A stretch of 64,000 nt of DNA from Angelakisella massiliensis (GTDB lineage: Bacteria; Bacillota; Clostridia; Oscillospirales; Ruminococcaceae): contig NZ_LT629944.1 of NCBI RefSeq assembly GCF_900104675.1, positions 496,001-560,000 on the forward strand, read 5' to 3'. Below the pieces are notes generated by a model. That model saw only the letters and a program-made list of their open reading frames with translations. It had not been told where the DNA came from and searched no databases. The position numbers and the translations under genes were made by a program. Within the stretch, counting starts at the first letter, position 1; each line of letters opens with the position of its first letter. This document shows positions 23,297 to 44,789 of the stretch, piece by piece.

Positions 23297-26200
23297 TCAG
23301 TCGACGACTTCAATCCAACCATTATTCAAGCACATGGTCAGGTTATACTTGACATCCTGACAGGCCTTATCCCCACTCTCGAAATTCAAGACCACATACT
23401 CTCCGTCGCATCCAACTACACGAGCGTATGCTTTCTTCGATTTGTGGAACACCCGTCTACCAATGAGCTCGCCATATGCGCTTGTATCGCTCTGCAGTCC
23501 TTCTTCTTCCGGTTCCGGAGTAGAATGTGGAGTCTCTTCCTTAACAGGCTGCACAGGTGCAACTCTATTCGACTCCGGCGCTTTTGCCACTTCCTTCGGC
23601 TTGGGATTACTGGCAGTCTGCAGTTGGGCTTTGCGCTCCTCTGCAGCTTTTTTCTTCAGCTTCAGAAGCTCTATAATTTCAGCGATATGAGTAGGTGTGA
23701 ACCAGAAATCATAGTCGTTGATAGCAACTGAAACGTGGTCATTCTCCTCAATGTCATTTTCTGACACATCAAGGATGGAATCTATTAGCCGGTCTGCCAG
23801 GTACTTATCATTTCGCAGCGTTCTAAACTTTGCGGCGCAATTCGGACAAAGGCAGACGTTCAACGGGTCGAGCTCTACATCCGGCTTCTGTTCCAGCTGG
23901 CACATTTCCACATTGGAGAACGGCTTGTGACACAGCTGGCAGGCATATCGATAAGACGAGTTTACGCGATACATATTCATCAGGTATGCGCGGACATCGT
24001 CTTGCGGTCGACTGACGCGGATACGCCTCACGACAGTCGCATATACGGTTGGGCTGGCATAGGACAGTATTTGAGCGGCATGCTTCTTCAGCGCCTCCCA
24101 GTTCTTAACGGAACCGGTCGGGAACTCAAATTCGTCCTCCTCAGATTGACCAGTAGAACCTTCTTGTAGAGACAGCCCACCAAATTCACGGCTGAGCTGC
24201 TCCGGCGTAATGTGGAATCGGCGCTCCAACTCGATTTCAAAATAGGTTTGTTTCTTCTCATCTGGCAAGGCATCGTAATCCTTGACAATAGCCTCATGCT
24301 GGTCAATTTTCCCTTTCTTAAATCCAAGAATGTCGTACAAATTTGAATCAAGGCTTACCTTCCCATATAGCGACTTGTTCAAATCGTGCTTTGATATGGC
24401 CTTGTGCGAGACCAGTTCTCCAGACTCAGTATAGAGCCATTTTCCGTTCCAGTCAGAAAGACGCCAGTTAAACCCATCCCTGTTCAGAGTATGGATTACA
24501 TCTGCAGGCTCGTCATATTTATTTGGCGTTCCTCCGCCGATATAAACAGTACCAACAAGGCGAGACATGTTCTCCTGCAGTGTCTTAAAAATCACCTGTG
24601 ATTTTATTAAGGCGTCTTTAGCTTTCGCATGCTGGGAGATGTAGAGAAGGGCCTCTTCCAACTTATCAATGCCGAGTTTCCAGCGAAAGTCTCCGGTCGT
24701 TCTCCACTCAGGCTGTCTGCCGGGATTGCCGGTATAGTATTCACCCCAGGTTTTTTCGTCCCCGGTGATGATTTTGTCTGTAACGCCAAGCGCCCGTAGG
24801 TCATCAAAGGTGATTCCGGCTGACTGGTATGCGTCAAAGTCGACAAAGTAGATATCCGGCGCAATGCCTTTGTAGTATTGCTCCAGCATTAGACCGGTTT
24901 CGGACTGAGGGAACCGAATAACCTTTGAATGTGGCCGTACCCAGTATGCCTTTCCTCCTGACCTGCACTTTATGTAGAACGCTTTCCGAACAATCTGTCT
25001 CAGGTCAGCCTCGTAGTCAGAATTCCTGAGATACTTGACAAGGGCGTGTATGTCTTGTACGTGCTCCTCAAATGAACCGCTAAAATCTGTACCAGCATAC
25101 CGCTTTTCAAGAGATTTTACAAAGTGCTCGTACTCGTTGGGCGTCTTCAGGTGCAGTACATTTTCAAAGAAGGTTCGGCACTTCTCAAATAGATATGGAT
25201 GGACAAATTCCACCTCGGCCTGCATCGCCTTCTTCGACGGAAGAAATACATTGGGCAAATAAGAAGACTGCGATTTTCGGTATGGAGCAACCATGCGGTT
25301 GGATGCTGTGCGGACAATCACAGCGTCGAGAATATTTCTGTAATTCGATTCGGAGAAAATATTCGGGACAGTCTCATACAGCTTGTAAAGCCTAACGAGC
25401 CAGTCATTATCTCGGTTTTCCAAAAAATTGTGATTTTCGTTGAAGTAGCTTCTAAGGTCTTCCGGACGAATAACCTCTATTCCCAAAATGCTGGAGAAAT
25501 AAGAGAGCACATCTTTGTACGGGCCTGTCTCCGTCAACGAAACCGGAAGCCATTCATAATGTCTTTTGTCGTTGATAAGTTCCGAGATTAACTCGCTGGG
25601 CAATAGCTCTGCAATTTCTCTGCTTCTCGCAATAACTGCATTGGCAGCCTTAGTGTAGCCCTTCCCATCCTTAACCGGCAAAACGCGCTCCGACGAAAAC
25701 AAATCCCGCATTTCTTCGTATAAAGGATAGAAAAGCGGATAGACATCAAAGTCGTCCTCATCAAGAGGAAGAATCCGAATCAGGCTCAAGTCAAGGAGTC
25801 CCATATCGCGCAGCTCAAGGACACTCTGTCTGAGGAGCTTTGCCGTTTGTTCAGCCAGAGCCTCGTTTTCCTCCTCATCGGCAGGAACACTGCTCCGGTT
25901 TGGAGTAGTGCGGAACGGGCCTTGGACAATGAAGTCAAGTTTGCTTTCGGTCTCTGTCGGGAAGTAAACGGAGATATACGGATTCTTTGCTTTTTGGAAA
26001 GTGGTTTTTCCTTCTTTGTCTGTTGCGACTGTGAACGCAACGTCAATTGTACGGGTAGAAACCCCCGAATCAATCGGCATCGAAAATTTGATGAATGACA
26101 GAGACTCGTCCGTCTTATCATCCTCGGATTCAATTGCCGACACGCGGGTGCAGTGGTCATTTACCGGCTCAGCATCCAGTAAATATTCCCCTGATGCTTC

Positions 26201-26824
26201 TTTGCCCGGAATCTTGATTTCGTACTCAATGAGTTCGAGGTGCCGCATGAAAAGGAGCGTGGTCACTCCGAGATTTTTGAGTCGCTTTGTAATAGCTTCA
26301 TTCAGCGCAGCCAGATTTTTAAATCCCGAAAACTGGAATCCAACGCTATATGGGAACACGAAGAGGGTCGTATAGCCAGCCGGAACATCAATGGAAGGGA
26401 TATCTACGGGCTTCGTGAAGTCCTGTATCTCAACAGCGAAGGGATGGCAATTCTCTGCCAGCTCCTTTTTGCGCGGCGAGCTATACAGCCTGACCGTTTC
26501 ACATATGCCAAAGACTGATTTGAAGCCGACACCGAATTCGCCAATCTGGTTTAAATCATTAACCTTGTCCGACTGCCCTATGTCGCACAGGCCCTGCAGG
26601 TTCTCCGTAGTGAAGGATTTTCCATCGTGCATCACTTCAAGCCTGTCAGAGTATTGGACAAACCGAATTCCAGTAGCTCCTGCGTCTTCCGCGTTCTGGA
26701 GCAGTTCGTAGACAAAGTGTGATTTATCGGTATAGAGCTGAATTATCCGTTCGAGCGACCGCCTGAGCATGCCGTCCCTATCTTGATTCTGGAGAATCTT
26801 ATCAGCTATATTCAAAGCGCTCAC
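23297..26824 (-). CDS. Giant GHKL (sacsin/Hsp90-like) ATPase, last gene of the defence operon
   Basis: 1175-aa protein. The N-terminal ATP-binding domain has the GHKL signature: YELLQNAEDAGAT (N box, residues 39-51), MHDGKSF (about 65-71) and IGEFGVGFKSVF (94-105). The middle ~700 residues are unrecognised. Near residue 960-1010 there is a zinc-binding pair CQLCHKPF ... CLCPNCAAKF resembling an HNH nuclease scaffold but without clear catalytic histidines. The tail (YGELIGRRVFHKSKKAYARV) looks like a small SH3-like domain. The start is GTG 26824 or, better spaced from AGAGG, TTG 26815. It lies 4 bases after the SNF2 gene. Family knowledge: sacsin-like ATPases recur in defence loci with helicases. 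The role here is inference. Confidence 0.85.
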   Translation of the reverse strand: MSALNIADKILQNQDRDGMLRRSLERIIQLYTDKSHFVYELLQNAEDAGATGIRFVQYSDRLEVMHDGKSFTTENLQGLCDIGQSDKVNDLNQIGEFGVGFKSVFGICETVRLYSSPRKKELAENCHPFAVEIQDFTKPVDIPSIDVPAGYTTLFVFPYSVGFQFSGFKNLAALNEAITKRLKNLGVTTLLFMRHLELIEYEIKIPGKEASGEYLLDAEPVNDHCTRVSAIESEDDKTDESLSFIKFSMPIDSGVSTRTIDVAFTVATDKEGKTTFQKAKNPYISVYFPTETESKLDFIVQGPFRTTPNRSSVPADEEENEALAEQTAKLLRQSVLELRDMGLLDLSLIRILPLDEDDFDVYPLFYPLYEEMRDLFSSERVLPVKDGKGYTKAANAVIARSREIAELLPSELISELINDKRHYEWLPVSLTETGPYKDVLSYFSSILGIEVIRPEDLRSYFNENHNFLENRDNDWLVRLYKLYETVPNIFSESNYRNILDAVIVRTASNRMVAPYRKSQSSYLPNVFLPSKKAMQAEVEFVHPYLFEKCRTFFENVLHLKTPNEYEHFVKSLEKRYAGTDFSGSFEEHVQDIHALVKYLRNSDYEADLRQIVRKAFYIKCRSGGKAYWVRPHSKVIRFPQSETGLMLEQYYKGIAPDIYFVDFDAYQSAGITFDDLRALGVTDKIITGDEKTWGEYYTGNPGRQPEWRTTGDFRWKLGIDKLEEALLYISQHAKAKDALIKSQVIFKTLQENMSRLVGTVYIGGGTPNKYDEPADVIHTLNRDGFNWRLSDWNGKWLYTESGELVSHKAISKHDLNKSLYGKVSLDSNLYDILGFKKGKIDQHEAIVKDYDALPDEKKQTYFEIELERRFHITPEQLSREFGGLSLQEGSTGQSEEDEFEFPTGSVKNWEALKKHAAQILSYASPTVYATVVRRIRVSRPQDDVRAYLMNMYRVNSSYRYACQLCHKPFSNVEMCQLEQKPDVELDPLNVCLCPNCAAKFRTLRNDKYLADRLIDSILDVSENDIEENDHVSVAINDYDFWFTPTHIAEIIELLKLKKKAAEERKAQLQTASNPKPKEVAKAPESNRVAPVQPVKEETPHSTPEPEEEGLQSDTSAYGELIGRRVFHKSKKAYARVVGCDGEYVVLNFESGDKACQDVKYNLTMCLNNGWIEVVD

Positions 26825-26828
26825 CTCT

Positions 26829-29800
26829 TTACTTTACCGTGATAACCCCGTTTGCAATCAACGTAGTATGTATATCTGCCTTCGCAATCTTCGCTTCAAT
26901 CTCTGAAACCTTCTGCTGATAACGCTGTGTAGCGTTTTCCAATTCAGAGCGATGCATAGTTGCAATTCGTTCATCCCCGGCCTCAGCAATCTTTCTTTCC
27001 AAGACCAATTTCCGGTTTCGGTAATTGTTCTTTAAGCTCTCTAATTTATAGCGAGCGACTTGCCTTGTAGACTCTGTATGCTGGGCTTTCTCAGCTTGCC
27101 ACATCCGGACATGGTGTTCCTCCAAAGCATCCCATGCCTCCGGCTTTAGCTTTGAAGAATAGTCAACTGCGGCAGCTGTCAGGATGTATTCCGGGAGCTC
27201 TGCTGCAATTCTCGGTTCTTCACAGATTGCTACCAATTTGAAATTTGAACGAATCCCAACATAATCCCACGCATAAATAGACATCGGGTAATCACCGGCT
27301 GGAATCTCGTCAGAGTAGTATTCCAAGTGAATATAAACGAGCTTGTTGGTGGCAAAATAGGATGCGGCTTGTTTGACCAGCGGGTGCACCGGAGTAACGA
27401 AAAAGGCGGTTCGGTTTTTCTCGGCAGCTTCTGAATCAAAAGTAATCGGGTGGTTCGGATTGTTGCCCTTAAGATAAACCTCCCATTTCCTACGCAGGCT
27501 GTTCCGCAGGCCAGTCAGATTTCTGAGGTCAGACAGGATTTCAGAACGCGCCACTGCACTGAGGCGCAGCGTTTTCAGAGCACCATCACCAAGGATATAA
27601 TTGCTACCACCTAAGCGGTGATTGAGATACATCTCTACAAGGTGCTGAATGCTCCTGGCCGACAGGAAGGGACTTTCTGCCTCCTGAATTTCCTTTGACA
27701 TCGTATAGTTCGATAAATCGAACCCGAATAGCTCCTTTTCCTCGCTTTCCAGCTTGTTCAGCTCTTGAGCCTTGCGCACCTCATTATCAGCCATCTGCTC
27801 CAGCTTTGCTTTTCGCTCTGCATCCGTAAGGCTGGTATCCAGTGCAATCAGCTCAATTTGCCTGCCGATTTCGCCGAGAATCTCCTCGCACTCACCGATG
27901 CTTCCTTCAAAGACACCGATGCGGGAGAGGCAGCGGTCATAAATATCAGCGTCTACCGTATCACTGGTGATAACGTTATAGATGTTGACAACTTCGCTCC
28001 CTTGGCCTCGACGGTCGATACGACCGATGCGCTGCTCGATGCGCATGGGATTCCAGGGCAAGTCATAGTTTATCATCATGTCACAGAACTGATAGTCCAA
28101 GCCTTCAGAACCGACTTCTGTGAAAAGCATGATGTCAATGGCTTCCGGGTCGTCCTTCGGGAGTTCAAACCGCGCCCGGAAATCCAGCCGGTCATCATTT
28201 TTAACGCTACCATCGATTTGCTCGACACGAAATCCCGCTTCTCGCAGCTTTCTTTTGATATAATACAGCGTATAGCGGAATGTGCTGAACAGGATGATTT
28301 TATTGTTTTCAGATTTCTGCTTTTCTCGGATAATCTGGAGCACCCCATCGAATTTCGGGTCGTCCTCCGGCAGGTTATCCGCCATTTCCAAAATGTTCTT
28401 TGCGATAGAGCGGAATGTCTCCAAGTCCATCTCGCTGAACTCGCCATCATCGAAATCAAACTCCGGGTCGTCCGTCATCTGCTCAAATCTATGGTCAATG
28501 ATACCCCGGATGTGCGGAGCAAGTCCAAAGATGCAGCTTGCGGCCTGACGACGAATCGTTGACATCATAAATTTGACACCACGTCCACCGTGCAATTTGG
28601 ACAGCGCGGCAACTTCAAATGTCAGCAGAGCATCATGGAGCTCCCGCTGTTGGTCGGTAAAATCGCTCTCCAGCGTATGCGTTCTCCGAATGCAGAAATC
28701 TTGGATATCCTTTCTGCGCGTCCGGTTGAGCATCATATTGAAGCTATGGAGAGACTCAATATCGGTAATGAGCTTTACCCGTTCCTCTCGGGTGATGGTG
28801 TCCTGTCTGAGAACCTTCCGGATTTGCTCAAATACCGGATTATTTGCGATTACATTTTCGCCCCATTGGGTAGTGAGAACACTGTCCAGCATCTCCAGTG
28901 CTTCTGCTTTCCAGTTTTCCTTCGCAGCTCGAACGATGTGGGCACACTGAGAGATATACGGATTCGGACGCGACATCATCGTGAAGCTCTTCTTGTCGAT
29001 TACGACATCCGGGCGCAGCAGATTAAGCAGCGTGTACAGGTCGTCGTCACTTGTCTGCAGCGGAGTCGCGGTCAGCATTACGACAGCGTCTGCGTGCTGG
29101 CAGAAGTAGTGGACGCACTTATATGCAAATGCCTTGTCCTTCTCCATGCTGCCATTGCGCAGGTGGTGGGCCTCATCAATGATGACCAGGTCAAAATGCG
29201 GTGCCGGGTCTAATTGTTGGAGGCCGAAGCTCTTATGGCGCTTGGATTGGTTCCCTTGGTATGTCCTCGCATCCAGAATGGAATACGGGACGATGACCTT
29301 TCCATAGCGGGTAGGCCATTCACCGTCACGGTCGGTATCAGAGATAATCTGCCGAAGAGTATCGCCATCCAAGGGCGTGAATTCCTCGTCAAAGCGCTTC
29401 ATCTCATTTTCCCACTTGCGGTCTGCGACAAGCGGCTTCGGGCAGATAATCATGATGTTTTCCAAATCGGAACGGGCCTGCAGCTCCTTGATAATCAGAC
29501 CGGCCTCGATGGTTTTACCGACACCGACACTGTCTGCAATCAGAATCCTTGGCTCATCTGCTTTTATCAGTTTCAATGCCGGTCTGAACTGATAGGGCAC
29601 GAAATCGATACGGGCAGCATTAAGGGAATACAGATTTCCGGCAGACGGATTGTTAATCTGGTAGGCAGAAAGGTAGCTTCGCAGGGTCTCAGAATCCACC
29701 CACTCATATTCAGGTGTGCTGCTCACCAGCGCAATCTGACCCTCATAATAGGTCTTCAGCGCACCTTCGACGAACACCTCGTACTTCTTGGTGTCGCCAA

Positions 29801-30431
29801 GCTGTGTAACAGAAAACACCATACCCTTGGTGTCCGGGCTGCCGACGATGTAAACGAGGCTTCTTTCTGTGATATCGTCCTCCTGCACAACCTCCGGCTC
29901 CACTATGACATCTGCCTGCTTGGGCACGGTAACGGTTGGGCGAAGCACTGACTGCGGAGGTGTTTCATCCTTGAATGCTTCGGGACGCTCCACCCTTGCT
30001 TTGAACTGTTCCAAATCAGGAATCAGTCCGCTCCGGTTCATCTGGGTGAAAAACCGGATGAGGCATTCAATGTCCGATACGATGGTATCCTTGCCGGGAA
30101 GCTCTGCGCTGACATGCGCCCAGTTGTTCCGGACGCCAATCATATCGCGGATGCACTCCCGCTCACTGGTCGGAAGATAGGCATAGCCACGCATCGTGTA
30201 CCACGACTTGTTGGCAACACGAAGAAGCGCCGCAAGGTCTAATTCCTCCAGCTTAGAAAGGCCCTTTTTCTCGATGAGCTCTCTCTGGGGATAGCTCAGA
30301 TTGGAGAGTACGCACTCCTCCCACCAGTCTTCACCGGATTTGGGCAGCATCACAGAAAACCACGACGCCAGTGCTTGCGCGGCCTTGTGAAGATAATCGT
30401 TCATCCGGGATATGATGTTCTCGTCGTACAT
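26829..30431 (-). CDS. HEPN-SNF2/HepA helicase fusion
   Basis: 1200-aa protein. Residues 5-115 resemble a Swt1-type HEPN domain, including the RNase-like motif R-NNWA-H (Arg101, His106). Then a SNF2/RapA-type motor: Walker A DSVGVGKT (300-307), DEAH (419-422), TATPLQ, and the helicase C-domain with TEVGSEGLDYQF and QRIGRIDRRGQ. A long coiled, charged C terminus follows. The motor is intact. It could translocate on DNA while HEPN acts as an RNase or a scaffold. Related SNF2 proteins occur in DISARM (DrmD) and other systems. It is spaced 16 bases from res and 4 from the GHKL gene. Confidence 0.88.
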   Translation of the reverse strand: MYDENIISRMNDYLHKAAQALASWFSVMLPKSGEDWWEECVLSNLSYPQRELIEKKGLSKLEELDLAALLRVANKSWYTMRGYAYLPTSERECIRDMIGVRNNWAHVSAELPGKDTIVSDIECLIRFFTQMNRSGLIPDLEQFKARVERPEAFKDETPPQSVLRPTVTVPKQADVIVEPEVVQEDDITERSLVYIVGSPDTKGMVFSVTQLGDTKKYEVFVEGALKTYYEGQIALVSSTPEYEWVDSETLRSYLSAYQINNPSAGNLYSLNAARIDFVPYQFRPALKLIKADEPRILIADSVGVGKTIEAGLIIKELQARSDLENIMIICPKPLVADRKWENEMKRFDEEFTPLDGDTLRQIISDTDRDGEWPTRYGKVIVPYSILDARTYQGNQSKRHKSFGLQQLDPAPHFDLVIIDEAHHLRNGSMEKDKAFAYKCVHYFCQHADAVVMLTATPLQTSDDDLYTLLNLLRPDVVIDKKSFTMMSRPNPYISQCAHIVRAAKENWKAEALEMLDSVLTTQWGENVIANNPVFEQIRKVLRQDTITREERVKLITDIESLHSFNMMLNRTRRKDIQDFCIRRTHTLESDFTDQQRELHDALLTFEVAALSKLHGGRGVKFMMSTIRRQAASCIFGLAPHIRGIIDHRFEQMTDDPEFDFDDGEFSEMDLETFRSIAKNILEMADNLPEDDPKFDGVLQIIREKQKSENNKIILFSTFRYTLYYIKRKLREAGFRVEQIDGSVKNDDRLDFRARFELPKDDPEAIDIMLFTEVGSEGLDYQFCDMMINYDLPWNPMRIEQRIGRIDRRGQGSEVVNIYNVITSDTVDADIYDRCLSRIGVFEGSIGECEEILGEIGRQIELIALDTSLTDAERKAKLEQMADNEVRKAQELNKLESEEKELFGFDLSNYTMSKEIQEAESPFLSARSIQHLVEMYLNHRLGGSNYILGDGALKTLRLSAVARSEILSDLRNLTGLRNSLRRKWEVYLKGNNPNHPITFDSEAAEKNRTAFFVTPVHPLVKQAASYFATNKLVYIHLEYYSDEIPAGDYPMSIYAWDYVGIRSNFKLVAICEEPRIAAELPEYILTAAAVDYSSKLKPEAWDALEEHHVRMWQAEKAQHTESTRQVARYKLESLKNNYRNRKLVLERKIAEAGDERIATMHRSELENATQRYQQKVSEIEAKIAKADIHTTLIANGVITVK

Positions 30432-30447: not shown

Positions 30448-33291
30448 TTAACCGAAAAATCCATCCTCATCAAAAATATGGTCAAGCTCGTCATTGGACA
30501 TCGCGTGGGAAACGCGGTCACGGACGGCGCTGCGGGACATATCCAGTCTCTTGATGCGCCCGTTCAGCAGCCGGATAAGCTGAAGCCTGCCGACACCGGG
30601 ATTCTGACGGGCATACTCAGCAAAGCCCTTAGCCTTGCCCAGATTGTCCGTTCTGGTACCATCATGCGGTTCCAAAATATCAATGACGAAGCCCATCTCA
30701 TCCTTCCGGATAATCAGAAAATCGGGATACATCGACTTCTTCTCCGCGTTCTGCTCATAGGGAATGCACAGAGACCACGACTTTCTCGGCGGATTACGGA
30801 GCCAGCAGATATAGTCCGAACGGCCACGCTCGGCCTGAAGGACAGCCTTTTCCCAATTGTTCAGGTTAATGACGGCCTTGCCTGTCGCATTGTCCACAAA
30901 CAGATGGTCGGTATAAGCCTCGCCGACATTGCTGCGCTCAATGCTGATGGTCTCCGGCAGCCGGAAGTTATGCTTACTGATGATGTCGCCATCAGAAACA
31001 ATGCTGTCATACTTTTTCCGATACCGCTCAGTCAGGCCGGTGATACGGCGGCGATTCGCGTCATTGATATCGTGGAAACGACTGCGGGCATAGTTATGGA
31101 GCATATCCATGCAGTCTGCGTCGGCGGCAAAGATGATGACGTCGATTTTGTATCCGGCAGGATTATCGTCATCTGCGTATCGGGTGCCGTAGCGGATGCC
31201 GACACCCTCGTTGCCCAGCTTGAGCTCCGCAAGACGGAACTGACGGTCGAGGTCGGTATCCGTGGTGGAAAACAAATCCATCTCCGCATGGTCATCCACG
31301 GACTCGCCGAACACATCAAACGTCTGCGTTTTCAGCTTGAACTGCAGTACCTGCGCGGCCAGCTCGTCATATCTACCCTCGTCCTTTGTCTTCTTGATGA
31401 AGCTGCGAATCATTTCTACGATTTCATTCACAACATCATAGGAGGCAGAGGGCTGAAGGCCGGACTGCGTCAGGAGCCGGGTAAGGCTGAACAGAGATTT
31501 CAGATAGTCGTTGATTCTGACTTTTCGCACGTCATATGTCAGGAGTCCGGCATCATTGATGGCCTTTACGATAGCCTCACGGTCAAGTTCCGGCTCTTCG
31601 GAAACGTCCGCCGGAGCAGGCTGAGGCTCAGATGTCGCGGTTGGCTCTGTTCCTGCAACGGCTCCGTCTGCAGGCATTACGGTGTTTATACCACTCGCCG
31701 GGTGAACGGCATCCGTGGTGCCGGGAGCAGGTGCCGCTGGTGCGCCGAATGAGGTGCTGCCACTTTGCGAGGGCGTCTGCTGCGTCGGCTCCTGCGCAGA
31801 AGGTTCGTTGCCGGTCTCAGGTGAAGGGCTGTCTCCCCAAGAAATCTGGCCGGGAAGTTGTGGTTTTGGTCTTGCGGGTCGCTGAGCCGTAGCCGGTCTG
31901 GTCGGACGGACAGTCCACGTTTCGATGGTGCTGTTCTCGAAGGAATCGCCGATAACATCGGTGGGGATCTCACCTCCCTCGGTGCTCTGAAGGGCCTTGA
32001 CAACATCCTCAACAGTCTGAGCATCAAAGTACGGCAAATAGAGGTGCACGTCGTTCAAAACATCGTCCACCTGAATATGCATCTGCATGGGTGTTCTGAC
32101 CATTCTGCCGAGCAGCTGCGCGATATAGGTCGCATCTGTAGCACGACGGAAAGACATCATGGTTTCAGCGCGAGGGCAGTCCCAGCCGGTGGAGAGGTTC
32201 TCTTTAAAGAAAACCACCTTGACATTCTTATCATCCGCAATGCGGGACGGCTCCAGATATCTGACTGCGACACCATTGATTTGGATGGTGCTGGTCGTCT
32301 GGCCGAAGGTATGTACAACTTCTCCGTCCTGAAAGCGGAAGCCTGTCCGCTCCTCAATCTTCCGCAGGCAGTCATCCAAGTCAGTATCGGAAATGCCGCT
32401 GCCGGTCTGGTTCTGCACCTGAATCACGAAAACCGGATTCACATAGGCGTAGTGCTGCTCCTGACAATACTGAGTCCAGTGCTCCCACTTCTGCTTCCAG
32501 TCATCGGCAGCAGCCTGCAGCACAGCCATATCCTTGCTTCCGGAGGCATCCTCCGGATAGGCGATGATGATTCTGTCCTTCAGTAGACCGGAGGCCCGCA
32601 CATCGTCGGCGGACACGATGACCTTCTGGATGGTCGATTCTGTCCCGGACACCAGATTGTTGAAGCGCTCCGGTGTAGCGGTCACGCCAAGCACGACCGG
32701 AACGGGAGCCAGACGGTCTTCCCGGCTGCCCTTGAGGAACTTCTGCATGATGGTGGTGGCCTGTGCAGCGGCTCGGCCCTGCATACCACGGTGGGCCTCG
32801 TCAATGATGAAGTACAAGCGGTCATACTTCTCGTCCATCGTGTTCTGCAGCGTTTCCCAGATGGTGAAGGTGCGTCCGTCGCCCTTCTTCGTCAGGTTAC
32901 TGCTCTTGCCGAGCTTCTGAGTGTTCAGAAAATAGATATGCCCATCGTCCAGCATCTCCTGGTCGAAGGATTCATCGGTGATGGTCACGCACTGGTTGAG
33001 CCGAATCTTATCCGCCTTCAGGTCAATCTTGCTGCGTGACTGTTCATTAAGCTCCGGAGAGTCCGAGAGCCAGACGAAGATGGCATCCGGCTGGTCGGGA
33101 TACTCCTCATCGCCGAAATAGATGGATTCAATCAAAGACGCCAAGATGATGGTCTTACCCGCTCCGGTGGGAGCGGTGAATGAGAGAACCTGCGGTGTGT
33201 GGGTGCGCTGGTAGGCGCCGAGGGCTTCAGCGGTCTTTCTCCGCAGCTGGAACAGCGCCATCTTCTGGAAAGGAAATAATTCTACTTTCAT
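30448..33291 (-). CDS. Type III restriction-like Res subunit (helicase-nuclease)
   Basis: 947-aa protein. Superfamily 2 motor: FTAPTGAGKTII (Walker A 42-47), FIIDEAHRGMQG (DEAH 164-167), VTATPERF, and LLGRMVRTP. A Pro/Ala/Ser/Thr-rich linker of about 110 residues (460-570) separates it from a C-terminal region with a PD-(D/E)xK-like pattern (YPDFLIIR ... VIDILEPHD). This is the restriction partner of the upstream Mod: the mod stop and res ATG are one base apart. The ATG at 33291 is preferred to an upstream open frame that overlaps mod. Confidence 0.9.
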   Translation of the reverse strand: MKVELFPFQKMALFQLRRKTAEALGAYQRTHTPQVLSFTAPTGAGKTIILASLIESIYFGDEEYPDQPDAIFVWLSDSPELNEQSRSKIDLKADKIRLNQCVTITDESFDQEMLDDGHIYFLNTQKLGKSSNLTKKGDGRTFTIWETLQNTMDEKYDRLYFIIDEAHRGMQGRAAAQATTIMQKFLKGSREDRLAPVPVVLGVTATPERFNNLVSGTESTIQKVIVSADDVRASGLLKDRIIIAYPEDASGSKDMAVLQAAADDWKQKWEHWTQYCQEQHYAYVNPVFVIQVQNQTGSGISDTDLDDCLRKIEERTGFRFQDGEVVHTFGQTTSTIQINGVAVRYLEPSRIADDKNVKVVFFKENLSTGWDCPRAETMMSFRRATDATYIAQLLGRMVRTPMQMHIQVDDVLNDVHLYLPYFDAQTVEDVVKALQSTEGGEIPTDVIGDSFENSTIETWTVRPTRPATAQRPARPKPQLPGQISWGDSPSPETGNEPSAQEPTQQTPSQSGSTSFGAPAAPAPGTTDAVHPASGINTVMPADGAVAGTEPTATSEPQPAPADVSEEPELDREAIVKAINDAGLLTYDVRKVRINDYLKSLFSLTRLLTQSGLQPSASYDVVNEIVEMIRSFIKKTKDEGRYDELAAQVLQFKLKTQTFDVFGESVDDHAEMDLFSTTDTDLDRQFRLAELKLGNEGVGIRYGTRYADDDNPAGYKIDVIIFAADADCMDMLHNYARSRFHDINDANRRRITGLTERYRKKYDSIVSDGDIISKHNFRLPETISIERSNVGEAYTDHLFVDNATGKAVINLNNWEKAVLQAERGRSDYICWLRNPPRKSWSLCIPYEQNAEKKSMYPDFLIIRKDEMGFVIDILEPHDGTRTDNLGKAKGFAEYARQNPGVGRLQLIRLLNGRIKRLDMSRSAVRDRVSHAMSNDELDHIFDEDGFFG

Positions 33292-33292
33292 C

Positions 33293-35386
33293 TTAGCGTC
33301 CTCCGTGGTTAATCCGGAAGTTATCCAGATAGTCTCTGTAAAGCTGATAGGTGTCCTCAGCATGCAGGCCGGAAACCATCTCCCGGTAGCCCGGTTCGGA
33401 ATTGGTCACGATATATACCGTCGTTATGGAGTCCTCGCCGTTCACCCGCGCAGCAAACGCCTCGTACTGCGACTCATCGGTCAGCACAGCGAAATGATTT
33501 ACCGGCAGCACCAGCATGGCGGGCACTTCCGCTGTCTCCTCAAGCGCGGGACAAGGCCCGTGGGCACCGGCCTTCAGCCAGAGCACTGGGAGCAGCTCCT
33601 TAAATTGGCGACCCAGCGCCACGGCGTTCTTATCGAGGAAGCCCAGCTTGAAGAAAGCAGCATTAGCCATAAAGCCATCGGCCATGGAAATATCGCTGCC
33701 AAGATAAGACCCTCTCAGCGGATTTCCGTTGACATCATGTCCTTCGATGGAACACACCGTTCTCGGCCATGTCACATATCGGGCAATCCCCAGCCTGTTC
33801 CATTCCTTATCTCCCGGTTGATATCCGCCAGCGCGGAGCGCCTTAGCCTCATCATCTGAGACCTCATTGTTTGTAACCATGATGCAGCGACGATGGCCGC
33901 CGTCCTCTGCATTTAGAAGATTGACCGCGTGAAGCGTCGTGCCTGAGCCTGCAAAAAAATCTACGATAAGGGCATTTGGTTTGCTGTCTACAAAGAATCT
34001 TATTACATCGTGAACCGCATATAGCGATTTAGGGAAGGGGAATTGCCTTCCAGGAAGTATTTTTGTTAATAAATCTGTTCCATGCCTCGTTGCGTCATGA
34101 GCCTTTATTCTCCATTGTGTTCCGGGCATAATATCTCGAACTTCATTGGTCGAGATAATAGAGCCATCCTCAGCATATCCATCTATTTGATAGGTTCCTT
34201 CTTCGACTTTTTTTATTTCTCCGCTTGTAAGAAAAGTAATTGGAACTCCGTTTTTTGTTGGCCTTCCGAATTTGATGTATCCTTTGGATTTGTACTCTAA
34301 GAATTTGTCCCGATTAATATTCCAGTAGTGCTCTCGTCCTTGAGTGTCAATCGGGAATACCGGAAATGTTCCTTCCGGCGAAACAACAGTGCTTCTATCC
34401 CTTTCAAGCGGAAGCGGCATCCCCACGCTATGAAACTTCCCATCATTAGTAAAAAACACTGGATAGAAGTTGCCCGGACTTCTCTCGCGAAAGCCAGCGC
34501 TACCACTCCGAATCAGATACTTCCAAGTTAAATGAGTCGCTCGTTCATCGTCTGGATTCATGCGCCATTCATCAGATAGTGGCAATCTCTGAATTGTTGC
34601 CTCTCCGAATACCAGCACATATATGTACTCATCAAGCCTTGTAAACTGTTGCTTTCGTGCGGAACCTTTAAAACTAATCACACTACTTATCATCTGCATT
34701 ATCGCTTCGGGAAACATTTCCTCCAACAAACAACCCAGATGAAGATATTCTTTTTCATCTATGGTGACTATCATAACCGAGTCGGCAGGATTCAAGAGAC
34801 GTTTGGCAAGTCTCAGCCGTTTCTCCATCATGGAAAGCCACTTGCTGTGACGATAAGTATCACTGCCATCCACGTAGTCGTTATTGTATTTCCAGTCACG
34901 AGCCCCTGTGTTATAGGGTGGGTCGATATAGATACAATCCACCTTTCCGGCATAGAGGTACTCCAGCAGCTGGAGCGCATGGTAGTTGTCCGCCTCAATC
35001 AGCGTGTGCCACAGGTCGCTGTCCGGCGCATTGCAGACGGTGTCCAGCGGCTGCAGATAGGGATAGATGGGCTCACCGAATTGGGCCACGCAAACCAGGG
35101 TATCCACGGGAAGCACGACGTGCTCCTTCGTCGCCTTGTGGAAGCAGGTAGCCTGCCCATCCTCGATTTTCTCTACATAGTAGATGTCAGTAACCTGTCC
35201 GTCCTTCTTGGCCACGACGGAACCGCGCTTTACCGGGATATCGTAAAGCGGTGTGGCCTCCGGCAGATGCTCTTCAAATACCAGACCGAATTTCTTCTGG
35301 CGATTAGCCCGCTTCATCTCTGCGCGAATCCGCTCACGCAGGGACTCGTCCGGAATCTGGCTAATCAAATCGTCTAAAGCAGCCAT
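33293..35386 (-). CDS. Type III-like Mod DNA methyltransferase
   Basis: 697-aa beta-class N6-adenine methyltransferase: catalytic DPPY in YIDPPYNTGARDW (155-158) precedes the SAM motif FAGSGTTLHA (478-484), the motif order of type III Mod proteins. The ~320 residues between them carry the target-recognition region (SVISFKGSARKQQFTR to GTQWRIKAHDATRHG). The ATG at 35386 sits behind AGGAGG. Recognition site not predictable. It would mark self DNA for the Res partner and perhaps for the whole operon. Confidence 0.92.
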   Translation of the reverse strand: MAALDDLISQIPDESLRERIRAEMKRANRQKKFGLVFEEHLPEATPLYDIPVKRGSVVAKKDGQVTDIYYVEKIEDGQATCFHKATKEHVVLPVDTLVCVAQFGEPIYPYLQPLDTVCNAPDSDLWHTLIEADNYHALQLLEYLYAGKVDCIYIDPPYNTGARDWKYNNDYVDGSDTYRHSKWLSMMEKRLRLAKRLLNPADSVMIVTIDEKEYLHLGCLLEEMFPEAIMQMISSVISFKGSARKQQFTRLDEYIYVLVFGEATIQRLPLSDEWRMNPDDERATHLTWKYLIRSGSAGFRERSPGNFYPVFFTNDGKFHSVGMPLPLERDRSTVVSPEGTFPVFPIDTQGREHYWNINRDKFLEYKSKGYIKFGRPTKNGVPITFLTSGEIKKVEEGTYQIDGYAEDGSIISTNEVRDIMPGTQWRIKAHDATRHGTDLLTKILPGRQFPFPKSLYAVHDVIRFFVDSKPNALIVDFFAGSGTTLHAVNLLNAEDGGHRRCIMVTNNEVSDDEAKALRAGGYQPGDKEWNRLGIARYVTWPRTVCSIEGHDVNGNPLRGSYLGSDISMADGFMANAAFFKLGFLDKNAVALGRQFKELLPVLWLKAGAHGPCPALEETAEVPAMLVLPVNHFAVLTDESQYEAFAARVNGEDSITTVYIVTNSEPGYREMVSGLHAEDTYQLYRDYLDNFRINHGGR

Positions 35387-35493
35387 GCGTTTTGCCTCCT
35401 GTGTCTTTCTCTGGAGATTACTCTTCAGGGATTTTTTAATCATCAACGAGCTCCTGGGGCTCATCACATTTTACAACCTGTCCTGTCCCAAAA

Positions 35494-38091
35494 TCAGGAC
35501 TCCAAGTAAATTTCGGGACTATTATACTGCACCTGTTCTGCTTCTCGGCGAATGCTCAGGTTTTCGCATTCCAGAAGCGCAGGCTTCAACCGGAGTTGGT
35601 CATTATCGTCAAAGGTAATGTACTGGCTCCGTTTTTCTGTAATATAGGCTGCCGCTTCGCGGGTGAAGCCATTTCGCTGCAGCCAAACTGCCTCCGGATT
35701 CGTTGTGCCGTACTCAACGAGTTCGTACCAATCGGTAAAAGAAGCATCCGGGAAACATGCTCTGTATTCCTGCGAAAACCGGAGGAAGTAGTTTGCAATC
35801 CGAAAAAGGATTACATCCTCGATGTCCTCCAGCATCCCGCTGATGAGTGCGTTAACATAGGCAGGCTCATTCTTGAACGCGACATACTGACCTTTGAGCT
35901 TTACCTTTCCTTTGCCGGTCGATAGATAGTAATCAATGGAATCTGTAACCATGTGGTTTAAGCTCATGCCAGAAACCCACTGATTCAGGACAAAGGCATA
36001 GTGCGACAGCTTCGTATGTGCTCCGGATGATTTGTTTTGAAAGCCAAGAGTATCGTACTCGTAGGTTTCCCACTTGAAAATGTCGCATAGCCGCTCAAGA
36101 AAGTTCCTCAGCTCATTATAATCAGCCTTGCCTCCAATGCGGATAGCCGGATAATGGAGTCTTCCACTGCGGATTTCCCTTGCGAGTCGTTCTGTCTGGT
36201 CAAGAGATAGGTTGATGTCATCATCAAGGGAATGCTCCCGGCCAGCGAAGGCTGCGGCAATGGCGGCTTCATCCTCCGGGCTCAGCACATCGGAGAACTC
36301 CTTTTTCACCCGGCTTGCACGTCCAGAAACAATATCTTTCAACAGGATATTGGCCACCTTGCGAATCAAAGAATACTCCGCTGGTGGCAGGGAGCCATCC
36401 TTTGGTATTTCAGCCTGCCCGCTCTTCAAAACAGAAACAATGCCGGTTTTCTGTTCCGGGGTCAAAGCAGTGGCCAGCGACAGCTGCTGTGGTACGATTT
36501 TCTCCTGCAGCAGATGGAGGAAGCGTTCTTTTTTCGTCTTCCGCTTTATACACACAAGGAACACGTTGCCATACAGGTTGAACTCTATGCGCCCGACCCT
36601 TCCCATCAGGTTTCTGAAATCGACCGGAGACATATCACCACCATTTTTGTGGCTGGTGATGAAAAGGTTATCCGCAGGCAAATTGACGCCTTCCAGTAAT
36701 GTACTGGTACAAAACAGGGTATGAATTTTTCCGTCCTTATAGAGCGATTCGATACGAGCCCGAATCGTCGAGGGCAAATACCCCATGTGATAGGCTACGC
36801 CTTTTTCCACAATATCGGCCAGGTAGTAATCGCCGTGAACATCCTGCCGGATGTCTTGCGCCAGAACATCCAGGTCACTATCATGCAACGGCTGGAGCTG
36901 TGCGGCATACTGCAAAGCATACTCCACAACATTGTCCTTACTATTCGAGTACACGATACTCCTGGCACCTTCACCCAATTCACGGACAAAATCCAGTAAT
37001 CCCTTGTCCTCCGGGAAACTGCAGTATTTTGTGAGTTTCTGAGTCGCCTCATTATAATAATGCAGCTCGAAACGCTTGAAATCAATCAGAAACTTCTCCT
37101 GATTCACAGGCGAAAACTTCGTTGCTATTTTATAGTTCTCCCTATTTGCAACGTCTGGGATGAGCTGCAAATAGACTTCTGGATTCGGGATGTTCGGAGA
37201 CGCAAAAATAATGTGTGGAGGTGTGCTCCTTTGAGAAAGCATATCAACCACCTTGTAGTAGAATGCGCTCCGGCCATCTTTCTTGGAAATCTTGTGAGCC
37301 TCATCGATGAAAAGGTATTCAATAGGAATATCCTTCATCAAAATCAGCAAGTAGAGCAGGCGTTCTGGGGTCATGGCAAAGATGAAGTTATGCTCTTCTT
37401 CCAAGGCCATTGCTCCCGCTGAGGTAACAATTCTATAATTTTTCTCCTTGAGCTCCGGCCCAAGAACCTCTGTCAGTTTTTCCGTCGTTTCATTTATGAG
37501 GGCTTTGGTCGGAACTATAATAGCGAAATTGCACTGTCTGCCTTTTGCTATCTGCTCTCGGATAAATGTCCTCATGATATATGATTTCCCCAGCGATGTG
37601 GGGGCTGAATAACTGAAGTACGGTTCGTTAAACTTCTCGTATATTTCCTTTTGAGCGCGGAAGAAGTATTCATTCTCTGCTTCCGGGATACGCAGGTATT
37701 CCTTGCTGACCTGGGTGAAAATACGGTCAAGGAGGTCTGCGCTCACATAATCTGCAGCTTTGAGACTCACACCTCTAAAATTGCTCACGCTGGTGAGAAC
37801 AGAGCCGAGATAATACTGTATCAATTCGTCATCCGGATGGAGAGCATTCAAAAGAGCGACGATTTCCTGCGCCCACAGCTTGTGGGTCTCCTCATTCTGC
37901 GTATGTACTGATTTTGAGAGGATATCTGCAAACCGCAAAGCTGCAGGTACACTTATCTCCTTTTCCGGAAGATTTGTCAGCCCAAAGAGCTGCCGACCAT
38001 AGTTGTATAGAATGGCGTCATACAGTTCGTTGAGATACGGATTCTCCTCAATGCCATCAAAGAGGACAGCGCCGATGGTGGTTTCTTCCAT
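35494..38091 (-). CDS. HamB-like DEAD/DEAH helicase (Hachiman-type)
   Basis: 865-aa superfamily 2 helicase with a ~150-residue N-terminal domain, Walker A APTSLGKS (163-170), FIDEAHKIS (DEAH 263-266), TLLEGVNLPADNLF and LMGRVGRIEF (motif VI, about 495-503). In Hachiman, HamB is a DNA-damage-sensing helicase that holds the HamA nuclease. The architecture and the coupling to a HamA-like gene (stop/start overlap TGATG) support the call. A 107-base gap separates it from mod, the largest gap in the operon. Confidence 0.8.
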   Translation of the reverse strand: MEETTIGAVLFDGIEENPYLNELYDAILYNYGRQLFGLTNLPEKEISVPAALRFADILSKSVHTQNEETHKLWAQEIVALLNALHPDDELIQYYLGSVLTSVSNFRGVSLKAADYVSADLLDRIFTQVSKEYLRIPEAENEYFFRAQKEIYEKFNEPYFSYSAPTSLGKSYIMRTFIREQIAKGRQCNFAIIVPTKALINETTEKLTEVLGPELKEKNYRIVTSAGAMALEEEHNFIFAMTPERLLYLLILMKDIPIEYLFIDEAHKISKKDGRSAFYYKVVDMLSQRSTPPHIIFASPNIPNPEVYLQLIPDVANRENYKIATKFSPVNQEKFLIDFKRFELHYYNEATQKLTKYCSFPEDKGLLDFVRELGEGARSIVYSNSKDNVVEYALQYAAQLQPLHDSDLDVLAQDIRQDVHGDYYLADIVEKGVAYHMGYLPSTIRARIESLYKDGKIHTLFCTSTLLEGVNLPADNLFITSHKNGGDMSPVDFRNLMGRVGRIEFNLYGNVFLVCIKRKTKKERFLHLLQEKIVPQQLSLATALTPEQKTGIVSVLKSGQAEIPKDGSLPPAEYSLIRKVANILLKDIVSGRASRVKKEFSDVLSPEDEAAIAAAFAGREHSLDDDINLSLDQTERLAREIRSGRLHYPAIRIGGKADYNELRNFLERLCDIFKWETYEYDTLGFQNKSSGAHTKLSHYAFVLNQWVSGMSLNHMVTDSIDYYLSTGKGKVKLKGQYVAFKNEPAYVNALISGMLEDIEDVILFRIANYFLRFSQEYRACFPDASFTDWYELVEYGTTNPEAVWLQRNGFTREAAAYITEKRSQYITFDDNDQLRLKPALLECENLSIRREAEQVQYNSPEIYLES

Positions 38092-39524
38092 CAGATGCCA
38101 CCTCCTATCAGCATGTTGATAATGCTGGTTTTATCTTGGGGCGCATTGTTGAACGGCAGAACGTAAATATAAAACGAATGCATCCCAAGATGGAGGGCCG
38201 TAATCTTCTGCGAAATATATTCCGCATTCTCAGTGATTGCACTTTCCATTCTTGCAACAGCTTCTTCTATGAACTCTGTCGCGGAATAGTCCTCTGGATT
38301 TAATCCAAGAGAATAGCCAAGAAATAGGCCAAATGCGGTTCCGGGCGGTTCCTGCCCCTGCTTCGTAGGAATCAGTATATCCTTGACCGCAAGCGCTGTC
38401 TGAACATCCACGCTCCTCCCGAAAGCAGCGCTGTTGACCAGTTCCACGCCTGTAATCCGCTTTGCTTTTATCTGAACCACCGCGTCAAAAGCCGCGTCAA
38501 TGGCAGATTTCAGGTCTCCTTCCATTTGAGAAGACCCGTACACCATTTGGTATTCGGAGGTGTCCCGCCCGATGGAACGCAAATGAATCCCGGCGCAGTT
38601 TGTGCTGGCACCCAGTTCAATAGAGCTCAGCAACTTAGGCGCCTTTAGCACCTCTTCCAAAAACGCATACAGCAGCATATCCGCCAGCTCGTTTCCTGTG
38701 CTGTGTTCGCGGATATATTGCGCAGCGTCCATGCCGACGCTTTCCAGGTCGCCCTCTGCCTTATACCGCTCCATCTCAGCTCTGGAATATACATAGCGAC
38801 CTATGTTGGTATTCAAATACTTTTTCAGACCGGCATAGGTGAATTCGTTATCTTCGATTTTGAGACGGAAGATTTGATAGTCTTCCGGATTTCTGAGCCC
38901 AAGAGGAATCTGGCAGACGGGGACGAATGCATCCTCAAAGCCCTTACCTCGAACCGACATAGTAAGGCCGGTAGCAGCTCCACTTTCTAACAGGACTAAA
39001 CGATTGAGTTCGTCCTGATTGAACGAACTTATATACTCACGTGAGACATCTTGAATGTATGTGCGCCCAGCCTTGTTATCGACTGTCCGAACGACAAAGA
39101 AGAAGAAATCTGTTAGCATCTCTGCCAGATTATATCGGTACTCAAGCCGATAGTAGCCCTTGGTATTAGATGTGATGGTGCCGATTCGCACATCATCAGC
39201 AATATCATCGTCCTGAAAAAGCAAATCCAAGAGAGCGTGAACAATATGCTTCCGCTTCTCTGGATAGAGCTTCGGAATTATCTGTGTCTCGAAACAGGCC
39301 AGAACGGACGGCGCGTGCTCCGGAGAAATCTCATCTGTAATCGCCGGTGAAATATTGTTTGAGCAGTTGACCAAGTGGCCTACGGTACCGTCATCTTCCC
39401 GGATGTCATACATGGAATTGACTGCTAAAAACATTGTTCCACAGAGGAATTTTTGCGTCGTGCTTCTGGGAGAGCACAAAGTGAGTATTTTAAGGAATGA
39501 CCCAAAACAAAGGTGCCCTGCCAT
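38091..39524 (-). CDS. HamA-like (DUF1837) protein, catalytic motif apparently degenerate
   Basis: 477-aa protein. The C-terminal half has the DUF1837/HamA pattern: ADMLLYAFLEEVLKAPKLLS, SIELGASTNCAGIHLR, then QMVYGSSQMEGDLKSAIDAA. In HamA nucleases, as I recall the family, the GExK-type motif falls at YGSSQ; here Ser331 and Gln333 (codons 38532-38534 and 38526-38528) stand where Glu and Lys are expected. The N-terminal ~230 residues are longer than in compact HamA and may be an extra domain. The start at 39524 follows AGGAGG, 31 bases after the Xre gene. Partner of the helicase downstream. Confidence 0.72.
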   Translation of the reverse strand: MAGHLCFGSFLKILTLCSPRSTTQKFLCGTMFLAVNSMYDIREDDGTVGHLVNCSNNISPAITDEISPEHAPSVLACFETQIIPKLYPEKRKHIVHALLDLLFQDDDIADDVRIGTITSNTKGYYRLEYRYNLAEMLTDFFFFVVRTVDNKAGRTYIQDVSREYISSFNQDELNRLVLLESGAATGLTMSVRGKGFEDAFVPVCQIPLGLRNPEDYQIFRLKIEDNEFTYAGLKKYLNTNIGRYVYSRAEMERYKAEGDLESVGMDAAQYIREHSTGNELADMLLYAFLEEVLKAPKLLSSIELGASTNCAGIHLRSIGRDTSEYQMVYGSSQMEGDLKSAIDAAFDAVVQIKAKRITGVELVNSAAFGRSVDVQTALAVKDILIPTKQGQEPPGTAFGLFLGYSLGLNPEDYSATEFIEEAVARMESAITENAEYISQKITALHLGMHSFYIYVLPFNNAPQDKTSIINMLIGGGI

Positions 39525-39555: not shown

Positions 39556-39756
39556 TTACTCTTTTACATAGTTGACTATGTCGCCGATATCGCAATCCAG
39601 CGCTTCACATATCCGCCCCAGTATTTCCATGTTCACAGGTAAGCCCTTTCCCATTTTGGCCATTGTAGAGGAGGTTATATTTGTCTCTGCCATAAGGTCT
39701 TTTTTCATCATGTTCCTGTCGATAAGCATTTTCCACAATTTATTATAGCTGAACAT
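39556..39756 (-). CDS. Small Xre/Cro-type regulator, first gene of the defence operon
   Basis: 66-aa helix-turn-helix protein (MFSYNKLWKMLIDRNMMKKD, LMAETNITSSTMAKMGKG) of the YozG-like Cro/C1 class. It lies just downstream of a strong promoter and heads the operon, so it likely autoregulates it. The ATG at 39756 follows AAGGAGGTG. Confidence 0.88.
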   Translation of the reverse strand: MFSYNKLWKMLIDRNMMKKDLMAETNITSSTMAKMGKGLPVNMEILGRICEALDCDIGDIVNYVKE

Positions 39757-43284: not shown

Positions 43285-44523
43285 TTACCCTACCTTCTCG
43301 AACGGAATCACCTTGCACCGACCATCCTCTGTTGGTTCCGGCGGGTCGGGCGGCTCGGGTTCCGGCTTGGCCGTGGCCGTTTCCATGAAGCCGCCGATCT
43401 TCTCCGCCGCACCTCTCTGCATCTCGTTGGTGATGTGGGTATAGGTGTCCAGGGTAAATCCGGCGCTGTAGTGGCCCAGCATACTGGACAGGGTCTTTAC
43501 ATCCACGCCGCTGGAGAGGGCCATGGTGGCGAAGGTGTGCCGGAGATCATGGAAGCGCACATGCTCCTCGATGCCGGCCTTCGCCAGCAGCTTGCGGTTG
43601 ATCCGGGACACCGCGTCCGGGCTCCAGTACCCACCGGTGCGGGGCGACGGGAACAGGAGGGGATTGTCCGGGTGCTGTTCATGCTCCCGCATCAGGAGTT
43701 CCACCGCCTGCTGGGACAGTGCCACCCTGCGGATGGAGTTCTTGGTCTTTGGCTCGGTCACCACCAGCTCCCCGTCGATGCGGGTGACCTGCTTGCTCAC
43801 CGAGAGGATGCGGTCCTTCACGTTCAGGTCATCCCACCGAAGCGCCAGCAGCTCCCCGCGCCGCAGGCCGCTGGACAGCTCCAGGAAGAACATGGGCAGG
43901 ACACCGTACTGTTCCGCTTCCCGGAGATAGGCTCCCAGCTTTTCCGGCGGCAGGATGGTCATCTCCTTTTTCTCCTTGGGCGGGATGCGGCAGTTGTCGC
44001 AGGGATTGTAGGGAATCAGCCGCTCCTTCACCGCCTGCTTCAGCGCCGAGGAGAGCACCATGTGGATGCGCCGGACCGAACTGCCGGTGAGGGCAGTGTT
44101 GGTCTGGTCTTTCCACCGCTGTACCCGTCCGTTGGTTCGGGAGTCATTGTAGAGCTGCTGAATCTGAATGGACGTAAGCCGCTTGAGCTTAATCCCTCCC
44201 AGAGCTGGAATGATGTGGTTTTCGATGGCATTGGCGTAGGTCTTGGCGGTATTGGGGCGGATCACCGGCTTGCTGTAAGTTTCAAACCACAGCCTGCACC
44301 ACTCCGCCACCGTGTAATCCTCGTTGTAGTTGATGGGGATTCCCCGGTTGTCCCGGATGGCCCTGGTCAGTTTTTCCTTGCACTCCGCCTGGGTCCTGGC
44401 GGATACACTTTTCTGGATCGTCCGTCCAGTCACCGGGTCGATGCCCTGGGTATACCGCCCCTCCCAGCGCCCGTTGGGCTTTTTCCGGATGCTGCCCTCA
44501 CCGTTTGCACGTTTCTTTGGCAT
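43285..44523 (-). CDS. Tyrosine recombinase/integrase
   Basis: 412-aa integrase of the Tn916/phage class, with basic arm (MPKKRANGEGSIRKKPNGRW) and catalytic residues intact: SSGLRRGELLALRW, HDLRHTFATMAL and GHYSAGFTLDTYTHI. The ATG at 44523 follows AAGGAGG; the longer open frame upstream overlaps the excisionase and is not used. Together with the excisionase and the relaxase remnant it marks a second mobilizable element whose attachment site is probably the tRNA-Pro half at 41528. Confidence 0.93.
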   Translation of the reverse strand: MPKKRANGEGSIRKKPNGRWEGRYTQGIDPVTGRTIQKSVSARTQAECKEKLTRAIRDNRGIPINYNEDYTVAEWCRLWFETYSKPVIRPNTAKTYANAIENHIIPALGGIKLKRLTSIQIQQLYNDSRTNGRVQRWKDQTNTALTGSSVRRIHMVLSSALKQAVKERLIPYNPCDNCRIPPKEKKEMTILPPEKLGAYLREAEQYGVLPMFFLELSSGLRRGELLALRWDDLNVKDRILSVSKQVTRIDGELVVTEPKTKNSIRRVALSQQAVELLMREHEQHPDNPLLFPSPRTGGYWSPDAVSRINRKLLAKAGIEEHVRFHDLRHTFATMALSSGVDVKTLSSMLGHYSAGFTLDTYTHITNEMQRGAAEKIGGFMETATAKPEPEPPDPPEPTEDGRCKVIPFEKVG

Positions 44524-44576
44524 AGATGATTCCTCCTTCCATAACACAAACACATACCACAGAATCGCTCCAATAG

Positions 44577-44789
44577 CTACTGAAACTTTTTCTCTGCCTG
44601 CTCCTCGATCCACGCCATAAATCTGTCTCGGGGAATGATGATCCGGCTGCCCAGGGTGATGGCGGGAAAATCCTGCCGGTGTACCACCTCATAGGCATGG
44701 GCCAGGCCGATGCCCAGCACATCCGCCACGTCCTGCACATTGAGCATCAGGGGCAGTTCCTCAAAAGAATGATATTTCGATCGCTTCAT
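44577..44789 (-). CDS. Excisionase-like small HTH protein
   Basis: 70 aa: LMLNVQDVADVLGIGLAHAY, then ITLGSRIIIPRDRFMAWIEE, the same fold as the protein at 18723. It precedes the integrase by 53 bases. Ribosome site AAAGGAG. Confidence 0.85.
   Translation of the reverse strand: MKRSKYHSFEELPLMLNVQDVADVLGIGLAHAYEVVHRQDFPAITLGSRIIIPRDRFMAWIEEQAEKKFQ

Follow-up and report, generated by a model that had tools for sequence, protein, structure and literature searches.

What does a Hachiman HamA protein do once its nuclease site is gone? The question is raised by an operon on the minus strand of Angelakisella massiliensis contig NZ_LT629944.1, within the 64,000-nucleotide stretch that was analyzed as a whole (the window). 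The operon runs from 39756 to 23297 with gaps of about 30 bases or less and combines HamA and HamB with genes resembling a restriction-modification (RM) system. Its features, and those of the HamA gene itself, are as follows.

39556 to 39756, minus strand: HTH_26 (Cro/CI type) regulator, first gene of the operon (Pfam PF13443, E = 1.9e-19)
38091 to 39524, minus strand: predicted nuclease-dead HamA, 477 amino acids (Pfam and PADLOC HamA; AlphaFold model and structural match)
38985 to 39524, minus strand: N-terminal helical domain of HamA, about residues 1 to 180, related to the N termini of FW-domain partners (profile hits, profile-profile score)
38592 to 38594, minus strand: codon of Ala311, at the catalytic Asp position (alignment, translation, Asp-column tally)
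38520 to 38540, minus strand: Y-G-S-S-Q-M-E replacing x-G-E-x-K (G330, S331, S332, Q333; direct translation, alignment, clade tally)
38094 to 38951, minus strand: PD-(D/E)xK-fold domain of HamA, residues 192 to 477 (structural match)
35494 to 38091, minus strand: HamB SF2 helicase (PADLOC HamB1, 1075 bits; SAPTSLGKS, DEAH, and GRVGR intact)
33293 to 35467, minus strand: type III-like Mod, an N6/N4 DNA methyltransferase (PADLOC MTase_III, E = 4.3e-171; Pfam PF01555; DPPY and FxGxG); true start likely near 35386
30448 to 33363, minus strand: Res-like helicase with a C terminus reading PD...LEPH, not PD...ExK (Pfam ResIII, E = 2.1e-15; motif check); true start likely near 33291
26829 to 30431, minus strand: SNF2 helicase (DrmD-like) with an N-terminal Swt1-like HEPN domain (Pfam HEPN_Swt1, E = 7.2e-9, and SNF2; PADLOC DrmD, E = 1.7e-111)
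23297 to 26824, minus strand: sacsin/HSP90-like ATPase resembling TmtA, last gene of the operon (PADLOC TmtA, E = 1.7e-59; Pfam SACS; NCBIfam P_loop_sacsin)
20907 to 23133, minus strand: type I RM remnants (HsdM and HsdR fragments) past the operon, of uncertain membership (sequence comparison)

The HamA protein and its nuclease site

The initial annotation had placed the protein in the DUF1837/HamA family and described its Glu-x-Lys motif as missing and its helicase partner as intact, and all three points stood. Pfam matched PF08878 over residues 233 to 458 (E = 1.4e-28) and PADLOC matched HamA1 over nearly the full length (E = 1.1e-101); the HamA domain was the only Pfam domain, with no trypsin-like protease. 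The start codon is backed by alignment with the proteins of loci L013 and L006 and by the full-length PADLOC match. Residues 193 to 477 of the AlphaFold2 model (mean pLDDT, 89.5) matched E. coli HamA 8vx9 (Z = 14.5, rmsd of 3.8, 220 residues aligned), and the model also matched 8zue (Z = 16.2), while the best unrelated structures reached a Z of only about 5.

The catalytic set of HamA is D-E(X)K, with E138 and K140 in the ECOR31 protein (PMC12278908). On the minus strand, positions 38540 to 38520 read tac ggg tct tct caa atg gaa (YGSSQME, residues 329 to 335 of the 477-amino-acid open reading frame), so that Ser331 and Gln333 fall, exact to the residue, at the Glu and Lys of the published D-GExK site. 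Over the wider region the window protein has A311-G-I-H...G330-S331-S332-Q333 where its closest intact relatives have DGIH...GESK or GEAK, and all three catalytic positions (A311, S331, and Q333) are therefore lost. Because the D-GExK site is gone, we file the system by its predicted nuclease site as a Hachiman variant, not as canonical Hachiman. PADLOC-type annotation labels such genes Hachiman HamA despite the absent site. Compared with Hachiman HamAB of E. coli ECOR31 (8VX9/8VXY), the window system shares the HamA fold and has HamB, with its motifs intact, as the next gene; it differs in lacking the catalytic residues, in its added N-terminal domain, and in its position within an RM operon.

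The dead-HamA clade

Homologues were collected from whole genomes, GTDB contigs, and viral contigs, with HamA-family hits from Bacillota-kin genomes taken irrespective of motif. Single-protein scans of genome and viral contigs gave no hits; homologues were recovered by alignment-based scans. Scans of viral contigs for further intact HamA proteins yielded few or none. Among 111 distinct sequences of the clade to which the window protein belongs, the Glu column holds Ala in 64, Thr in 30, Ser in 8, Lys in 7, and Val and Ile in 1 each, and an acid in none. The Lys column holds Asn in 39, Ser in 34, Asp in 22, Gln in 6, His in 4, Glu in 2, and Lys, Cys, Met, and Phe in 1 each. The loss of Glu and Lys is thus common to the relatives, but the exact Ser/Gln pair, which the initial annotation had suggested looking for in all of them, is not. 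G330 is invariant, the intervening residue is Ser in 110 of the 111, like the GESK of the nearest intact relatives, and the catalytic Asp column still holds Asp in 76 of the 111.

Since the loss of Glu runs through all 111 sequences and that of Lys through 110, chance or sequencing error is dismissed, on this alignment, as the origin of the dead site in the window. A tree built on 115 sequences recovered the dead clade as monophyletic (support, 100/97), with one change required; its sister, formed by L062 and L089, is intact (GESK in both). Judged from sequence, the predicted site loss has become fixed in one large, old clade. A TIR domain is fused to a dead HamA (GKSS) at L189:8433-9920 (plus strand), beside HsdM and HsdR.

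The best PDB sequence match to window HamA (profile E = 1.7e-26) was AbpA (PDB 9wh1) of the E. coli AbpAB system, which likewise joins a nuclease-dead HamA domain to an N-terminal addition. In AbpA the addition is a Cap4 nuclease (PMC12278908, PMC10732053), whereas residues 1 to 208 of window HamA had no Pfam match up to an E value of 1, Cap4-type PF14130 included, and no catalytic signature. Membership of AbpA in the dead clade was considered and rejected: in the tree it falls outside the clade, though on a long branch, and its site loss consequently looks independent. AbpAB reacts to DNA damage and to phage SSB (PMC10732053), and the dead HamA of AbpA was termed enigmatic by the authors of the main Hachiman paper (PMC12278908).

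Restriction-modification partners and a predicted adaptor

Neighbor clustering and Pfam placed HsdM, HsdS, HsdR, Mod, Res, Dcm, McrB, and similar genes in dead HamA-HamB operons. Among loci with at least 5 kb of upstream and 3.5 kb of downstream sequence, RM genes belonged to the HamAB operon in 76 of the 87 dead and 4 of the 38 intact ones, a comparison in which RM beside intact HamA may be under-counted, the RM models having been built from dead-locus genes. After clustering of HamA at 70% identity the figures were 33 of 37 and 3 of 30. RM genes were missing from the operon in 11 of the 87 dead loci and from the surrounding 9 kb in 6. Intact HamA-HamB genes in or next to RM genes occurred at L207, L062, L251, and L219, and RM linkage may be older than the site loss. 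As the dead clade has a single origin, the tree holds one independent pair for site loss versus RM linkage, and the counts are no proof that the one follows the other.

The history within the clade is more telling. Within the dead subtree one RM type gave way to another about 18 times, counting some switches into or out of mixed types or an RM-free state, and this turnover with RM itself retained argues, as far as sequences can, for a durable functional link of dead HamAB to RM. The same link is supported by a Mod/Res cassette (58 to 62% identical) found in differing gene order: it follows HamB in the window and L082 and precedes dead HamA in L054, L060, L083, and L117; at about 60% identity it accompanies both short (~310 amino acids) and long (>400 amino acids, the window type) dead HamA forms. 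By gene, Mod relatives that are 58 to 62% identical adjoin dead HamA in L082, L060, L083, and L117, and Res relatives that are 60 to 62% identical occur in L054, L060, L082, L083, and L117. The partner nuclease varies (HsdR, Res, SacI-like REase, or McrBC), with HsdR partners keeping ExK in 55 of 57 cases (51 by pattern and 4 by eye); constant across relatives are HamB, dead HamA, the shared N-domain or an FW partner, and RM of one type or another. In Streptococcus thermophilus, an island combining Hachiman with type II RM gave much stronger protection than Hachiman by itself (PMC12322248), a result that by analogy fits cooperation, though no dead HamA is known there.

For the window, the initial annotation had proposed that effector activity moved to the partners Res and HEPN. 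A shift to partners is plausible in general, but the choice of these two found no support in the relatives, whose nucleases differ. Of the elements of type III RM, the window has Mod and a ResIII helicase carrying PD...LEPH where PD...ExK is expected (YPDF...DILEPHD); LEPH recurs in the five nearest relatives, while other Res partners have PD...ExK. Window Res is, by its motif, a conserved variant without canonical ExK, and a predicted nuclease at most. The HEPN motif RNNWAH is intact at residue 101 of the SNF2 protein, whose only close relative is in L082 (61% identical). Either protein as the general effector was rejected, as relatives use other RM types and the SNF2 relative is confined to L082. 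Past the operon, the remnant HsdM fragment is 41% identical to HsdM of L189 and the HsdR fragment 35% identical to HsdR of L092. Because the nearest dead HamA relatives (L090, L092, and L096) carry HsdM-HsdS-HsdR after HamB, we would guess that these fragments may be a trace of partner exchange.

The two length classes of dead HamA differ in a further partner. A protein with an FW (NBR1-Ig) domain was encoded in the operon at 49 of 56 loci with short dead HamA but at 0 of 31 with the long form, and the window operon has none. The regulator at the head of the window operon belongs to an HTH family that stands before many long dead HamA genes. The C-terminal domain of the FW partner matched the FW domains of ILRUN (Z = 12.6) and NBR1 (Z = 12.0), with the next matches below 10 except for another NBR1; the Pfam N_BRCA1_IG match was slightly under the cut-off. 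The likeness to NBR1 and ILRUN lies in this domain, here at the C terminus of a partner acting in trans, and not in their eukaryotic autophagy-receptor setting.

The N-terminal half of the FW partner was weakly modeled (pLDDT, 30 to 77), and whole-model fold searches with window HamA and the FW partner matched only outside the N-domain. A profile of the long-dead-HamA N-domain alone matched the N termini of FW proteins from L024, L026, and L022 (E = 1.2e-28 to 2.3e-21), and against a broader FW set the profile-profile score was 34, versus 20 or less over 60 shuffles and 43 background windows. As a query for scans, the N-domain alignment proved too diverse. Given this homology, we read the two as one predicted adaptor, fused in long dead HamA and separate, on the FW protein, in the short form. 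When the loci were approached in reverse, from the FW side, they led to HsdM-HsdS-HsdR-HamA-HamB wherever downstream sequence sufficed, with the FW gene first, before HsdM, and HamAB after HsdR, so that the RM genes lie in between; one exception, L267, is ambiguous, and the others end at a contig edge. At L267 the FW-HsdM locus has several HsdS genes, two of them on the other strand, and resembles an invertible specificity locus. The N terminus of a STAND-like ATPase at L142:16402-18444 (minus strand) also matched the N-domain profile (E = 2.7e-7), its STAND/AAA matches being weak.

A relay reading and its rivals

HamB senses abnormal DNA and controls HamA (PMC12278908), and in HamMAB a dead HamA is required to oligomerize and trigger a fused protease (PMC12799240). 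With a probability of about 0.7, we propose that the dead clade is a variant of Hachiman whose HamA has ceased to be a nuclease and, with the HamB helicase retained, relays through the N-domain/FW module either to RM or to some other effector. HamB would still scan DNA for abnormal states, e.g., ends or single-stranded DNA, and dead HamA would be the scaffold that relays its state change, much as toward the fused protease of HamMAB. The role of adaptor would fall to the N-terminal domain in long forms and to the separate FW protein, with its related N terminus, in short ones, and the outcome, whether DNA destruction or growth arrest, would be carried out by other proteins, RM acting either as a nuclease that is recruited or as the source of the DNA ends read by HamB. 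We are most confident of one part, that dead HamA acts as a scaffold working through partners; an RM-coupled relay in particular is tentative, at somewhat less than even odds. Since RM type is exchanged freely among unrelated nucleases, coupling through DNA, in which RM cuts and HamB reads, is favored over specific contact with each nuclease. By analogy, dead HamA of the window would most likely use its N-domain to relay from HamB to an effector path. HamMAB is alike in using dead HamA as a relay with the effector elsewhere, but the window operon has no trypsin-like protease or MBL pro-nuclease, and the partners here are the FW/N-domain module and RM genes; restriction systems go unmentioned in the text of the HamMAB paper (PMC12799240).

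The alternative we take most seriously, although we consider it unlikely, makes the N-domain or FW protein the effector itself, or the recruiter of a third-party effector like effector-associated domains, with RM as independent defense cargo under the same promoter. No other partner is as constant as this module, the STAND-like ATPase of L142 carries a related N-domain, and a TIR domain occupies the corresponding place in L189 (TIR_2, E = 3.5e-11); the RM types, moreover, are unrelated to one another. Against cargo stand the persistence of RM linkage through type exchange and the position of the RM genes between FW and HamAB, and the N-domain's want of a catalytic signature or Pfam match argues against its being the effector. 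Tight linkage whatever the RM type would suit a HamB-dead HamA pair that shields the host from its own RM, by restriction alleviation or end repair, outside any defense effector path, and nuclease loss would suit such a protective role; we hold this improbable, as the characterized Hachiman, AbpAB, and HamMAB systems are anti-phage and cause growth arrest or death.

Plain defense-island clustering, with dead HamAB and RM functionally unlinked, seems a shade less probable again: defense genes cluster in general and the dead clade has a single origin, but intact HamAB of the same phylum is seldom in an RM operon (the 4 of 38 above), and the conserved gene order and the reverse FW test also oppose it. 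Least credible is that HamA still cleaves DNA with a displaced catalytic set. The domain does hold conserved charged residues (E290, K297, E303, and H314), and the Asp persists in much of the clade; in the alignment, however, these residues are equally conserved in intact HamA and hence no replacement, so that the acidic/Lys set elsewhere in the protein that could have overturned the initial annotation was not found. None of the 111 dead sequences combines an acid at the Glu position with the Lys, and the E138A,K140A substitution in ECOR31 HamA abolishes defense (PMC12278908).

A wider version of the relay is more speculative than RM coupling as such. It would be a widespread combined immune system in which RM of any type marks self and cuts non-self, HamB reads the ends, and dead HamA with its adaptor, in cis or in trans on the FW protein, triggers a second, amplified response. 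If true, two known defenses would have been fused into one sensor-relay-effector circuit via the loss of an active site. Dead HamA was already known from AbpA and HamMAB, but literature searches, largely of open main texts, found no RM-embedded dead HamA, no FW-domain proteins in RM operons, and no experimental work on a clade member, and the RM-embedded clade with its cis/trans adaptor appears to be new relative to the literature searched. The clade amounts to a natural experiment on a large scale, with one loss of the site, a helicase retained, partners swapped, and a single adaptor module left in place. With it the scaffold hypothesis can be tested directly, and it suggests that an RM system can be coupled to a sensor of DNA damage.

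A tyrosine integrase-like open reading frame, recognized by eye, lies a few kilobases from the operon (window positions 43285 to 44613, minus strand), and the window defense genes may be on an integrative element. Farther on, the minus-strand frames between 47880 and 50630 may encode a lincosamide-type nucleotidyltransferase, an IS1595-like transposase, and an ANT(9)-like nucleotidyltransferase, which they resemble.
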